Assembly: GCA_022826485.1 (NCBI GenBank)
Contig: JAJDUU010000021.1
Location: 129,558 to 193,557, forward strand
Reading direction: 5' to 3'
DNA length: 64,000 bases
Source of the DNA: Chloroflexota bacterium
GTDB taxonomy: Bacteria; Chloroflexota; UBA11872
A program made the translations under genes and the position numbers. Shown piece after piece: positions 58,334-63,677 of the stretch. Below the pieces are notes generated by a model. That model was not told where the DNA came from. It saw only the letters and a program-made list of their open reading frames with translations, and did no database searches. Within the stretch, counting starts at the first letter, position 1. Each line of letters begins with the position of its first letter.

Positions 58334-58339
58334 TATAAT
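58334..58339 (+). promoter_or_regulatory. putative -10 box TATAAT for the SPFH operon
   Basis: A perfect TATAAT (GGGCTATAATTG) between the divergent mnmG start and the first gene of the SPFH-containing operon. It is 88 bases upstream of the GTG. No good -35 is visible. Confidence 0.45.
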
Positions 58340-58426
58340 TGTGGTCAACGTTGGCCGGCCGATCGTTCCGTTGGTCGCGCTCCGGAGCCCATTATCGTTA
58401 CCAGCGGGCCTGACTTCACCACCCAG

Positions 58427-59128
58427 GTGGTCGACGCGTTCGTCGTGCCCACCGAGACCGGGGCCGCGTTCTTCGTCGACGCGGACTACGCGGAGTTGGA
58501 TGCCGCCAACGGACCGGTGCAATTGGCCGTCTACAGTCCGTATGACGTGTCGCCGGGCGAGGTCGCGGTGGTCCGCGGGCGTCTGGAAGCGGACCTCTTC
58601 AGCTACGCGGCATCGGCGGCCGGCTTGGGACGGGCGTGGATGCGCCACGCGCTTCTGGCGATCGTGGAGCTCACCATCCTCGGGGTGCTGATTGCGTTTC
58701 TGATCGCCAATCCGTCGCGCGTCGCCTTCATCATCGGCTGGGCGCTGCCGTTTGGGTTCTTCATCGCCACTCGCTCGGCGCTGCACGCGTTTGCGCAGCG
58801 TGAGTACGGTGCGCGCGCGCGGCGCATGCTGGAATCCGGGGCGGTGCTTGCCGAGCCGGCCATTTCGCAGTTCGGCGGCAGCCTCGCCCACGTGCGCGAC
58901 ATCTGGCGCGGGCTCGAGGAAGGCGCGTTTGCCCGCGACACCGTGGCGCTGGAGCTGGCCTCCGAGCGGCTCCTGCGCTGGCCCGGCGCCGTTGCGTTCT
59001 ATCGCTCCCAGCGACAGGCGGACGAACCCTCGCGGCCGCGGCCGCTGCGAAGCCGGCTGGCGCGCCTGCTCCTCCCGAAACGACCCGTCGCCCCGCTGAC
59101 GACGCTGGTCGCCAGGCCCCGCCCATGA
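58427..59128 (+). CDS. unknown membrane protein, gene A of a four-gene operon
   Basis: A 233-residue protein with an N-terminal soluble domain (1-70, beta-rich: FFVDADYAELDAANGPVQLAVYSPYDV), two membrane helices (about 74-94 and 98-116) and a C-terminal helical part with Arg-rich end. GTG 58427 is the first regular start; the frame is open upstream to 58391 (ATT), where a protein-like VTSGPDFTTQ lies, so the start is uncertain. Its stop overlaps the next start (ATGA). I recognise no family. Confidence 0.6.
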   Translation: MVDAFVVPTETGAAFFVDADYAELDAANGPVQLAVYSPYDVSPGEVAVVRGRLEADLFSYAASAAGLGRAWMRHALLAIVELTILGVLIAFLIANPSRVAFIIGWALPFGFFIATRSALHAFAQREYGARARRMLESGAVLAEPAISQFGGSLAHVRDIWRGLEEGAFARDTVALELASERLLRWPGAVAFYRSQRQADEPSRPRPLRSRLARLLLPKRPVAPLTTLVARPRP

Positions 59129-59907
59129 TGCAGCTGGTGTGCTGGGCAGTGCCCGTTCGCGGCGGCTACGTATTGCGCGCCGACCAGGCGGCGCAGGCCG
59201 CCGTTCGGGCCGCGGATGGGCGCCGACCGCAATTCGTCGACTGGGACGTCGCCATCGTGCATCCCGGCTCCCCGGGATTCTCCGCGGAGCGAATTCGCCG
59301 GCCAACCGTGCTGGCGATCGAGTCGTCGATGCGCCACGGAACGCCGGCGCGGCCCAAGTCCGGCGGTCGCCTGGCGCGCCTGCGCCGGTCGTGGGCATCA
59401 CTGGCCCTGGGCGCGGCGCTCGTGGTGCTTTCGGGGACCCACTGGGTGCTCGCGCTGGCGGGCGCATGGCTGCTGGCCGGGCGGGCATGGACGGCGGCGC
59501 TGCTGAGCATCCGCCCCACCGTCGCGCCCGCCACCGCGTGGACGGCCGCGGGCGTGCAGGTCACCGCCGCGCCCCACGCGGGTCTTGGCCAAGTCGCCCA
59601 CGCGCTGAAGCGCGCCGTCGACGACGGCGGCTACGGACAGGCGCTGGCGGTGGCCCAAACGCTGGGACTCGACGAGGCCACGGAGGTCTATGCGGCGTTG
59701 ATCAAGCATCCCAATCCCATGGCGCTGCCGGCTGAGGTCGGCATGTGGACGCCCGCGGAGTCGGTTGACGATCCGGCACTGATCGGCGTGTCGCGAGATG
59801 CCGCCGAGCCGCCGGCCGCCCCCAGCGGCGGTGACGACGACGCCGGGACGACCGAGCCCGATCCCGGTGACGACGGCTCCGACGATCCAGTGGACCGACT
59901 TCCATGA
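59125..59907 (+). CDS. unknown membrane protein, gene B of a four-gene operon
   Basis: A 260-residue protein. The N-terminal 80 residues are soluble; two closely spaced hydrophobic segments (about 90-104, 106-124) follow, then a segment LGQVAHALKRAVDDGGYGQALAVAQTLGLDEATEVYAALIKHPNP and an acidic, Gly/Asp/Pro-rich tail ending DDPVDRLP. ATG 59125 overlaps the upstream stop, and its own stop overlaps gene C (four bases), which indicates a stoichiometric complex. No family recognised. Confidence 0.6.
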   Translation: MMQLVCWAVPVRGGYVLRADQAAQAAVRAADGRRPQFVDWDVAIVHPGSPGFSAERIRRPTVLAIESSMRHGTPARPKSGGRLARLRRSWASLALGAALVVLSGTHWVLALAGAWLLAGRAWTAALLSIRPTVAPATAWTAAGVQVTAAPHAGLGQVAHALKRAVDDGGYGQALAVAQTLGLDEATEVYAALIKHPNPMALPAEVGMWTPAESVDDPALIGVSRDAAEPPAAPSGGDDDAGTTEPDPGDDGSDDPVDRLP

Positions 59908-60806
59908 TCTCGACGGAGGCGCGAAGCCTCGAAGTTCCCATGGACGTCGACCGATTCGCGGACAGCCTGCGGGGGAGCAAGTGGCGCGAGATCCGGCAAT
60001 CCTTGGGCGACACCTACGAGGTGCGCACGCTGTATGAGGGCCCCTTGCCGGGTCTGCCGCGGGCGCAAGTGGTGCGCCTGTCGTCGGGCGATCCCGACAG
60101 CCCGATACGAATCCTCTTCGATGCCGTGCCGTTGAGCCTGTCGCGGCCCGTGCTTGTCGCCGGGCGCGCGGTGACCCGGGTATTCACCTCGCGCGCCCGT
60201 GAACGCGCCGCGTTGCTCGATCGAATTGCCGTGCGGATCCACGTGATCGAGGTTGACGGTGACGCTCCCGATATCCCGCCGTTGCCGCTGGCGACCGGGC
60301 TGGATGGCGGCTTGCGTCTGGCCCACAGCGTCGCCAACGAGCAGGCCTGGAGCGCGCTGCGGGAGTCGGTGCAACGCTTCCGGCCGACGCTCGCCATGGA
60401 TCTCCGTGACGCGGGCGCGGCGGCACCCAACGAGCATCTGGCGCTGGTGGTGCACAGCCTGACGCACGCGGCCGGGGAGTTTGAACTCGAACCGCTCCCA
60501 GGGACGACCGAAGGCAGGTCCATCGCCCGCGACGTCGCCCGGCGTGGAATCTCGCCCTATCGGGGAACGCCGGGCGAGCTCGCGTCGGCCGGATTGCGGC
60601 CGCTCGGCAACGGCGCCCTCACGCGGATGAGCCCGCGCGATCCTTCGCGATCCGTGGCCGGCGTCGCGACCGATATCGGCGCAGCCGTCGGGATCACGGC
60701 GCTTGCCCTGGGGCTGCGGGAGCTTGACCGAGCCATCGCTTTGACCGAGGCCGCGGCCGCCGGCGTGGATGAGTCGATCCGCGAGTTCCGGCGCATGGGC
60801 GCCTAG
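59904..60806 (+). CDS. unknown protein, gene C of a four-gene operon
   Basis: A 300-residue protein that looks mostly soluble: SKWREIRQSLGDTYEVRTLYEG, a central domain around ERAALLDRIAVRIHVIEVDGD, then a region with GVATDIGAAVGITALALGLREL, a possible amphipathic helix or weak membrane segment. Overlaps gene B by four bases; gene D starts directly after its stop (TAGATG). No family recognised. An earlier ATG (59904) and 59940 (MDVDRF) are both possible. Confidence 0.58.
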   Translation: MISTEARSLEVPMDVDRFADSLRGSKWREIRQSLGDTYEVRTLYEGPLPGLPRAQVVRLSSGDPDSPIRILFDAVPLSLSRPVLVAGRAVTRVFTSRARERAALLDRIAVRIHVIEVDGDAPDIPPLPLATGLDGGLRLAHSVANEQAWSALRESVQRFRPTLAMDLRDAGAAAPNEHLALVVHSLTHAAGEFELEPLPGTTEGRSIARDVARRGISPYRGTPGELASAGLRPLGNGALTRMSPRDPSRSVAGVATDIGAAVGITALALGLRELDRAIALTEAAAAGVDESIREFRRMGA

Positions 60807-62321
60807 ATGGCCGGGGAAGGTCGACTGATGGCATCGGGCGCCTTCGATCCCGTGCGCCACGCGCCCACCATGCCCGTCGAGTACGCGCCGATTCCGGCGG
60901 GGCCAAACGACAGCGAGCTTGTGGCGCATGACCGGCACCGCTTGAGCGACGCCCTGGTGCGCGGCATCCCCATCGCCCGCACCCTGCGGATCGACGAGCT
61001 TCCCGACGACGTGGCCACGGTTGCCCGGATCGAGGTCGGCGCGATTCGCCGCCTGCGGCAGGCCGCGCGCGCGGCGCAGGCGCGCCGCTGGCGCGTCTAT
61101 GTGTCGGCGGCCGGGCTGCCGTTTCTGACCGCGGCGCTCCTGGGTCTGCTGGGCGTGTGGCTGGCAACGATTCCGGTCATCGGCGAGCCGCTCGGCGGGT
61201 TCGTGGGCACCGCCGGCGGCAACGTTGGCGGGCTGCCGCTGGCGGCGATCATCGCGGCGCTGCCATCGGTGTGGTGGATTCGCCGCGTGCGCCGAGCGGC
61301 GCGGGCGGCGCCGCAGCCCAACCTGCGCACGGAGTCGGTGGCGACGAGCGAGCTCACCGTCAGCGACGATCTGGGGCCGTTCCTCGCCGATGCGCGCGAG
61401 ACGATGCGCGACATCGGCGGCATTCTCAGCGGCAACCCGCGGCCCGGTGGCGAACAGGCGCACCGCCTGGCCACGCGATTCGGCGCGCTGGCTCGCATCG
61501 CGGCGCGACACGACGTGCCGTCGGTGGTTGCCTTTGCGGCCGACGCCAGCGAGCAGTTTCGCATCGCGTCCCAGCCGCCCGCCCGGCTCATCCCCGGCCT
61601 GCGCTTGCGGCGCCGGCCGGCCAGCGTCGTTCAGATCCTGGCCCCGTATATGCAGCGGCGGACGTCGCGGGTGCAAGCCCGGTCATCGCGGCTGCTGGGA
61701 GTCGGCAGCGGGCTGGTCGTCGCGGCGGCGGCATTTTTCTTCGCCGGCGTTTTCGGCATCAGGGGCGACGAAGCGCTGCTGCTGCGATCCAACGAAGCCG
61801 TCGTCTTTCCGTCGTCGAGCACCGTGCTCGCCCTCCGGCACGGGTTCGACGGTCCCGCGGAGTCCAGCGCAAACACGCTCACGGTCGTGCAGGGCCCCGG
61901 CATCTTCTGGAGTTGGCCACGGCCGATCACCGAGCGTCTGCTGGTGCCGCTGACCAACCGCGCGCTGGAAATCGCGGTGCCCTTCCCCGGCGATCCTCCC
62001 GGCCAGCGTCTCAATGTCGAGTTCCGCTACGAGATCGACGACCTGAAGTCATTTGTCGCCAGGATGGAGTCCCTCGAGGCGATCGACTCGGCCCTGGCCC
62101 GGGTGGTCACCAGCGAACTGGCCAGGGGCTTCGCCGATCGCTACGAGACGGAGCTGGCGGCGCCCAACGCGGTGCCTGAACCGTTCATCGTGGCCGGCCT
62201 CCAGGAAGGCGCCGGCGAACTGCTGAACAACTTTGTCGAGTTCACGGAGGTCAACAGCGCATTTGGGACGTTCGGCGTAACGCTGCGGCCCGAGCCTTCC
62301 CACAGCTTCACGCGCGATTAG
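60807..62321 (+). CDS. SPFH-like membrane protein, gene D of a four-gene operon
   Basis: A 504-residue protein with hydrophobic segments near 97-125, 133-158 and 296-318. The C-terminal part (about 355-460) resembles the SPFH/Band-7 domain of HflK/HflC: VQGPGIFWSWPRPITERLLVPLTNRALEIAVPF, then RLNVEFRYEIDDLKSFVARMESLEAIDSALARVVTSELARGF. The preceding helix plus outward SPFH domain mirror HflK. The first 300 residues have no known counterpart. Directly after gene C. The set may form a membrane scaffold or protease-regulating complex; that is inference. Confidence 0.65.
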   Translation: MAGEGRLMASGAFDPVRHAPTMPVEYAPIPAGPNDSELVAHDRHRLSDALVRGIPIARTLRIDELPDDVATVARIEVGAIRRLRQAARAAQARRWRVYVSAAGLPFLTAALLGLLGVWLATIPVIGEPLGGFVGTAGGNVGGLPLAAIIAALPSVWWIRRVRRAARAAPQPNLRTESVATSELTVSDDLGPFLADARETMRDIGGILSGNPRPGGEQAHRLATRFGALARIAARHDVPSVVAFAADASEQFRIASQPPARLIPGLRLRRRPASVVQILAPYMQRRTSRVQARSSRLLGVGSGLVVAAAAFFFAGVFGIRGDEALLLRSNEAVVFPSSSTVLALRHGFDGPAESSANTLTVVQGPGIFWSWPRPITERLLVPLTNRALEIAVPFPGDPPGQRLNVEFRYEIDDLKSFVARMESLEAIDSALARVVTSELARGFADRYETELAAPNAVPEPFIVAGLQEGAGELLNNFVEFTEVNSAFGTFGVTLRPEPSHSFTRD

Positions 62322-62372: not shown

Positions 62373-63080
62373 ATGGCAACGCTTGGCGAACAGCTCCGCA
62401 CCGCCCGAGAATCCGCCGCGCTCACCATCGAGGAAGCCGCCGTCATCACGCACATTCCACGCGAGCATCTGACGGCAATGGAGTCAGACAACCTGGCGGC
62501 GCTGCCCGGACCGCCCTTCAACGCCGGCTTCATTCGCATCTACGCCGAGGCGCTGCGGCTGCCGGTCCAACCGCTGCTCGACATCTACTACGCGCAGGCC
62601 GGCGAGGCTCCGTCGCCGGTCGGCGTCGCACCGATATCCGCCGCGCGGCGCGGGCGTCAACTCATGCTGGCGTCCCTGCTGCTCACCGTGGCGCTGGGCG
62701 TGGTCCTGGCCGTTCTGGTGTTCAACATCTTCGGCGGAGGGACCGACGACAGCGTGGCGACGAACGGCGCCGACGCCGCCGAGCCGTCGATCGTCGATCG
62801 CGGAGCCGTGTTCGAGCTCGTGGTCGTGACGGAGACCCAGGTGCGCATCGAGGTTGACGGTCGAGCGCTGGTCGATGAGACCCTGGCGTCCGGCGAGTCG
62901 CGACAATGGAGCCTGGAGCGCGAAACGATCCTCGAGGTCGGCGCCGCCGATGCGATCGAGTTGACCATCGATGGGGAGCCGGTGACGCAACTCGCCGATC
63001 CGGGTGAGCCGGCGCAACACATGTGGCGGGTCGACATTCCGGCGGCGCCCACCGCCGCGCCGCGACCTAGAAGCGGCTGA
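62373..63080 (+). CDS. RodZ-like helix-turn-helix membrane protein
   Basis: A 235-residue protein. N-terminal Xre-type HTH (LGEQLRTARESAALTIEEAAVITHIPREHLTAMESDNLAALPGPPFNAGFIRIYAEAL), one membrane helix (about 97-120) and an extracytoplasmic beta-rich domain (VFELVVVTETQVRIEVDGRALVDETLASGESRQW), as in RodZ/DUF4115 proteins. RodZ links MreB to the wall machinery. The pgsA gene follows four bases on, a frequent RodZ-PgsA neighbourhood. No mreB or other shape genes are in the window. Confidence 0.85.
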   Translation: MATLGEQLRTARESAALTIEEAAVITHIPREHLTAMESDNLAALPGPPFNAGFIRIYAEALRLPVQPLLDIYYAQAGEAPSPVGVAPISAARRGRQLMLASLLLTVALGVVLAVLVFNIFGGGTDDSVATNGADAAEPSIVDRGAVFELVVVTETQVRIEVDGRALVDETLASGESRQWSLERETILEVGAADAIELTIDGEPVTQLADPGEPAQHMWRVDIPAAPTAAPRPRSG

Positions 63081-63083
63081 GCC

Positions 63084-63677
63084 GTGGCTTCCGCTCCCGA
63101 GCACGCGCGCCCCGCCGCCAAGCAGTGGCAGGCCTATCTGCCCAACGCCCTCACAATCGCCCGCGTCGCGTCGATCCCGGTCATCATCTGGCTGCTGTTT
63201 TGGGACTGGTGGTTCTCGAACCAGATGGCCGGATTTGTCTTTGCCGCGGCCGGGGCGAGCGATGTCTTCGACGGCACGCTGGCACGGCGCTACGGCACGG
63301 GTTCGCAACTGGGCATCTTCCTGGACCTTGTCGGCGACAAGCTGCTGATCGCCGCCGTGCTCTTCACCATGGTCGAGCTGGGCTGGATGCCGGGATGGCT
63401 GGGCGCCAGCTTCATCGCGCGGGAGTTCGCGGTCATGGGCCTGCGGGCCTATGCCGGCGCCCAGGGGGTGACCGTCGCCGCCGGCCGCCTGGGCAAGGCC
63501 AAGATGATGTGGCAGTACATCGCCTTCAACGCGCTGATGTGGGAACGCACCTCGCTTCCGTGGTTCCTGGTCGGCGTGGCCCTGCTGCTCACGCTGGCCT
63601 CGGGGATCCACTACGCCGTGGGCATCTGGCAAGGCCTGCGGGCGCGTCCGGCGCCCGACATTCCGGAGGTGATCTGA
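63084..63677 (+). CDS. pgsA: CDP-diacylglycerol-glycerol-3-phosphate phosphatidyltransferase
   Basis: A 197-residue polytopic CDP-alcohol phosphatidyltransferase. The full signature is present around residues 59-87: D-x2-DG-x2-AR-x8-G-x3-D-x3-D (seen as SDVFDGTLAR and GIFLDLVGDK). Followed by GKAKMMWQYIAFN, typical of PgsA, and about four to six membrane helices. It forms phosphatidylglycerophosphate. GTG 63084 start; probably co-transcribed with the rodZ-like gene. Confidence 0.92.
   Translation: MASAPEHARPAAKQWQAYLPNALTIARVASIPVIIWLLFWDWWFSNQMAGFVFAAAGASDVFDGTLARRYGTGSQLGIFLDLVGDKLLIAAVLFTMVELGWMPGWLGASFIAREFAVMGLRAYAGAQGVTVAAGRLGKAKMMWQYIAFNALMWERTSLPWFLVGVALLLTLASGIHYAVGIWQGLRARPAPDIPEVI

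Follow-up and report, generated by a model that had tools for sequence, protein, structure and literature searches.

A rodZ-linked four-gene operon in an uncultured Chloroflexota class ends in a truncated, HflK-related SPFH protein

In a window of 64,000 nucleotides from a Chloroflexota bacterium (the whole stretch of DNA that was analyzed), four genes, here termed A to D, form a conserved operon upstream of rodZ and pgsA, and the last of them encodes an SPFH protein. New here are the N-terminal module common to A, B, and D, the identification of HflK as the relative of the SPFH domain, the truncation of D after SPFH2, the persistence of the D-rodZ pair where A to C are missing, and the near-exclusion of HflK and D among genomes. 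The features of the locus are as follows.

58334 to 58339, + strand: TATAAT, a −10-like element, conserved in the genus.
58391 to 59128 (annotated from GTG 58427), + strand: gene A, with a predicted soluble N-domain, membrane hairpin, and helical C-terminal domain; basis, open reading frame, conservation of the start region, and dN/dS.
59125 to 59907, + strand: gene B, with the architecture predicted for A and the most variable member; basis, open reading frame, dN/dS, and profiles that match those of A and D in register.
59904 to 60806, + strand: gene C, probably soluble, with relatives detected only inside the class; basis, open reading frame and dN/dS.
60807 to 62321, + strand: gene D, with an A/B-like module (aa 18 to 300), a predicted third transmembrane segment (aa ∼297 to 315), and HflK-type SPFH1 and SPFH2 (aa ∼318 to 500), without a coiled coil.
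61758 to 62306, + strand: SPFH-like region of D, with the motif GPGxxWxWPxPxTxR; basis, D-family alignment and hmmsearch against HflK.
62373 to 63080, + strand: rodZ, with Pfam HTH_25 and RodZ_C; conserved neighbor of D.
63084 to 63677, + strand: pgsA, matching TIGR00560 above the cut-off.

The original prediction of four open reading frames joined by start-stop overlaps or zero gap was exact by coordinates: A and B, as well as B and C, overlap by 4 nt, the gap between C and D is 0, and the overlaps recur in relatives. Upstream of these + strand genes lies mnmG, divergent to the operon; downstream follow the genes first described as rodZ-like and pgsA, whose identities are borne out by the Pfam and TIGR00560 matches listed above. 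The TATAAT element credited to the operon was also found, and five of the six genus sequences compared retain it; it is identical in four of five relatives and TACAAT in the fifth (L002). Pairwise dN/dS values against three relatives were 0.06 to 0.09 for A, 0.23 to 0.25 for B, 0.05 to 0.11 for C, and 0.12 to 0.16 for D, which points to purifying selection and thus to four working genes.

The annotated start of gene A, GTG 58427, is probably not the true one. Four of five relatives have GTC at this position, the 36 nt on its 5′ side show only synonymous-site changes among relatives and are preceded by CCGGAG, and no in-frame ATG, GTG, or TTG lies between the preceding stop and 58427. Together, these features suggest that initiation at a noncanonical ATT (58391) or ATC (58394) is likely but unproven. 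Across the genus, the stretch from 58384 to 58427 retains this ATT/ATC candidate start with CCGGAG upstream.

We examined the proposed SPFH-like C terminus of gene D by several independent comparisons. The C-terminal 200 aa matched Band_7 (PF01145) with an E value of 3.9e-4 and 20.9 bits, against a curated cut-off of 23.6, and 8 of 13 D relatives matched the same model (best E value, 6.3e-5). This signal was seen only when the last 200 residues were scanned alone; full-length D had no match in Pfam or NCBIfam. By hhalign, the D family scored 39.0 (E value, 2e-5) with 31 undoubted SPFH domains, compared to at most 14.0 in 20 column shuffles, and no reversed control in the profile-profile comparison rose above the 15% reporting limit. 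The AF2 model of D reached a mean pLDDT of 42, with values of about 55 to 77 over aa 381 to 490, and that of C was useless (pLDDT, 34), in both cases because the alignment was limited to close relatives. With this model of D (mean pLDDT, 42), Foldseek placed stomatin SPFH domains at all of ranks 1 to 9 (best E value, 0.09; probability, 0.95). When PDB sequences were searched with the profile of the SPFH region, only helical chance matches and no SPFH protein were returned. The GPGxxWxWPxPxTxR motif is conserved in the alignment of this region. Each line of evidence is modest alone, but the Band_7, hhalign, and Foldseek matches and the retrieval of HflK with the D profile jointly make a convincing case that the C-terminal part of D is SPFH. 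Its extent, aa ∼318 to 500, is wider than the aa 355 to 460 first proposed.

By sequence profile, the nearest relatives of D outside the class are HflK proteins. The D profile finds an HflK there at an E value of 4.8e-7, and a profile of the SPFH region ranks additional HflK genes, along with an HflC partner, above the remaining SPFH proteins, the identities of these HflK and HflC matches being confirmed by NCBIfam (TIGR01933 for HflK). Neither TIGR01933 nor any other NCBIfam model matches D or its relatives, and hflC is absent from the operon in every locus. In all relatives, D terminates a short distance past the final SPFH2 strand, and the HflK chain extends ∼150 residues beyond that point. 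Since in Erlin and prohibitin the sealed cage wall is built by CC1, which follows SPFH2 (PMC12624060), D would not be expected to form a cage of this kind, and the missing coiled-coil wall speaks against a simple copy of the HflK/C cage. Other SPFH proteins were noted in passing: the window's genome encodes two ordinary ones besides D, slipin/stomatin-like and prohibitin-like (G000:C41:269259-269765, G000:C39:44564-45136; L030, L031), and two genomes of another Chloroflexota family carry paired large HflK-like proteins of 410 and 506 aa that fall below the HflK cut-off (L169, 95 to 2841, and its counterparts in L170).

Profile comparisons, in which individual E values are weak and the case lies in the consistency and register of the matches, indicate that A, B, and the N-terminal part of D are paralogs of one ancestry. 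The N-domain profiles scored 23.3 for A-D, 19.5 for A-B, and 18.1 for B-D (shuffle maxima, 13.4, 13.9, and 11.0), and the helical-domain profiles scored 18.3 for A-B and 18.6 for B-D (shuffle maxima, 11.7 and 12.4); for the helical domains of A and D, the score of 17.5 was not above the shuffle maximum of 18.1. Over the whole module, A-D reached 38.9 across 187 columns (shuffle maximum, 19.2), and noncorresponding segments of the three proteins stayed at the background level of 7 to 11. The module is predicted to comprise a soluble N-domain, a membrane hairpin, and a helical domain, which D would extend by a third helix and by an SPFH domain on the outside. A hydrophobicity and charge scan detected three hydrophobic segments in D, with flanking charges that fit an N-in/C-out orientation; these charges suggest that the N-domain and helical domain of D lie inside and its SPFH domain outside. 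In A and B, one strong segment each was found at the scan threshold, and the hairpin was read from the alignments, so that the three membrane proteins anticipated for the operon are A, B, and D.

The product of gene C has only a weak, Ala/Gly-rich hydrophobic segment and is probably soluble. It had no match in Pfam, NCBIfam, PADLOC, PHROGs, or PDB, and database profile comparisons upheld the view that A to C match no known family. Three candidate identities were rejected. A motif seen by eye in relatives had suggested an inactive M14 metallopeptidase for C, which gave an hhalign E value of 0.41, near background, and no Pfam or PDB match. A SLATT domain in A was indicated for the window's protein only (E value, 0.38; 10.7 bits versus 41) and for 0 of 7 relatives, and an anti-phage or phage origin found no PADLOC match and no meaningful PHROGs match.

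The closest named relatives of the window's genome are the MAGs COS3_bin_17, RHO3_bin_74, and jk18xAbins.3, whose source samples, as read from the isolate names, are of sponge type. With its profile, D was found in 32 of 41 genomes of one uncultured Chloroflexota class; outside it, among the other Chloroflexota of a 400-genome sample, the same profile matched one true HflK only. A second D match in the genome G006 was a chance hit within a LeuC-like open reading frame. The A profile matched 27 genomes, every one among the 41 of this class. The order mnmG/A-B-C-D-rodZ is kept in families f1, f2, and f5 and in part of f3. In five f3 genomes, D lies beside a gene of RodZ type, for which Pfam confirmed HTH_25 and RodZ_C in two of the five, A to C do not adjoin D, and A was not found with its profile; upstream of D there is a right-handed beta-helix protein, as checked at L114. 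In another lineage of the class (L114, 3679 to 9506, and L115, 3156 to 8358), the place of A to C before D and RodZ is taken by a flagellin gene and a gene for a right-handed beta-helix (NosD-like) protein. Neither D nor A was found by profile in the six genomes of family f4, and in G021 (L149), a 1.9-Mb genome of the same order, mnmG and rodZ are adjacent and A to D are cleanly lost, a natural deletion. From the class-wide order, the losses in G021 and f4, and the D-rodZ pairs without A to C in f3, it follows that the operon goes back to an ancestor of much of one class, can be dispensed with, and is held together most firmly at its D-rodZ end. The suspected link to rodZ is thereby strengthened, since it is conserved class-wide and D-rodZ adjacency outlasts the loss of A to C. 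MreB and FtsH each occur in 41 of 41 class genomes, so neither is informative by absence.

What we infer beyond these observations concerns the assembly, topology, RodZ partnership, and function of the complex. The membrane scaffold or quality-control complex first suggested may be regarded as plausible. Our working proposal, put forward tentatively and with somewhat less than even confidence, is a hetero-oligomeric, HflK-derived membrane scaffold that works with RodZ/MreB in cell elongation. It would consist of three related membrane subunits, A, B, and D, with soluble C as a cytoplasmic partner. Because of their shared ancestry, A, B, and D would most likely assemble with each other. D would cross the membrane a third time and thereby place its HflK-derived SPFH1-SPFH2 domains outside the cytoplasmic membrane, where they could form a low ring or patch joined by the A/B/D membrane modules; as D stops after SPFH2, it would not be expected to contribute a coiled-coil cage wall. 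The complex would probably act with RodZ, either by organizing the membrane around the cell-elongation machinery or by regulating it. RodZ contacts MreB and has its C-terminal domain outside. The conserved gene order, the persistence of D-rodZ, the in-register matches among A, B, and D, the SPFH identity of D, its predicted N-in/SPFH-out topology, the presence of MreB in every class genome, and the analogous PspA-YdjGHI operon of Bacillus subtilis, described below, are consistent with this proposal. Since rodZ-pgsA is a common gene pair, an operon placed before it need not share its function, and the presence of MreB and RodZ in G021 and the checked f4 genomes, which are without the operon, indicates that RodZ does not need it. 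We regard as rather improbable the stronger form of the proposal, in which a previously undescribed assembly, an A/B/D hetero-oligomer, stands in for the coiled-coil cage and its SPFH platform belongs stably to the RodZ-MreB machinery throughout the class, having taken over from HflK/HflC.

The distribution of HflK bears on a different possibility, namely, that D has functionally replaced HflK/HflC, being an FtsH modulator that lost the cage and acts through A to C, its rodZ neighborhood being incidental. All six f4 genomes, where D is missing, and both f5 genomes, which have D, encode curated HflK, but no f1, f2, or f3 genome does; it is thus missing from 30 of the 32 genomes with D. The association is significant by Fisher's test (P = 4.5e-4) when genomes are counted as independent despite shared descent, and with their shared ancestry as few as one or two evolutionary events may account for it. 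This pattern, HflK as the nearest outside relative, the universal presence of FtsH, and a predicted topology of D as in HflK would all fit a replacement. However, the two f5 genomes have both proteins, some class genomes have neither, and the operon lacks ftsH, its lasting linkage being to rodZ. On balance, we consider such a replacement unlikely, though deserving of weight.

An envelope-stress module analogous to PspA-YdjGHI, which would respond to membrane damage and alter membrane fluidity with no direct RodZ contact, is in our estimate rather improbable. In Bacillus subtilis, a like gene set joins an SPFH protein to two operon-encoded membrane proteins on which it depends and whose loss leads to cell-shape defects (PMC8581546). 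However, no pspA was seen in the operon, and YdjI is soluble and cytoplasmic, whereas the SPFH domain of D is predicted to lie outside. A decayed SPFH resemblance without functional meaning, with D simply a lineage-specific membrane protein, would accord with the subthreshold Pfam score and the PDB search, but is very improbable given the conserved motif, the purifying selection on D, and the concordance of several independent comparisons.

A scaffold associated with RodZ would matter in several ways. A coiled-coil wall is considered necessary for the cage of known SPFH complexes, and a conserved, selected SPFH protein without such a wall, joined to a new membrane module and tied to rodZ, would separate the role of the SPFH domain from that of the cage. 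The machinery of bacterial cell elongation may also gain a candidate SPFH subunit, and four conserved, unannotated protein families are hereby named in a host-associated Chloroflexota class. In the open-access literature, we found no paper mentioning SPFH together with Chloroflexota; SPFH and RodZ occur together in two, of which one (PMC8581546) concerns a different operon, PspA-YdjGHI.

Among known systems, D is comparable to HflK of the HflK-HflC-FtsH complex (TIGR01933) in that a predicted transmembrane anchor directly precedes an SPFH domain predicted to lie on the outer side. Unlike HflK, it has an extra N-terminal module of ∼300 residues with a predicted membrane hairpin, stops before any coiled coils or further C-terminal part, has no adjacent hflC, and does not match the HflK model. 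With the wider SPFH/Band 7 family (PF01145; stomatin, prohibitin, flotillin, and Erlin), D probably shares the SPFH1-SPFH2 fold, as indicated by profile and by Foldseek with a poor model, but not CC1/CC2, the region that makes up the sealed cage wall of Erlin and prohibitin (PMC12624060). The PspA-YdjGHI operon of B. subtilis likewise joins an SPFH protein to two membrane proteins and is linked to cell shape; there, however, YdjI has no membrane anchor, PspA has no counterpart in the present operon, and the membrane proteins are not known relatives of the SPFH protein. As for the RodZ-MreB elongation complex, to our knowledge the known Rod complexes (Escherichia coli) contain no SPFH subunit, and in the class described here RodZ is the constant neighbor of D and MreB is present in all 41 genomes.
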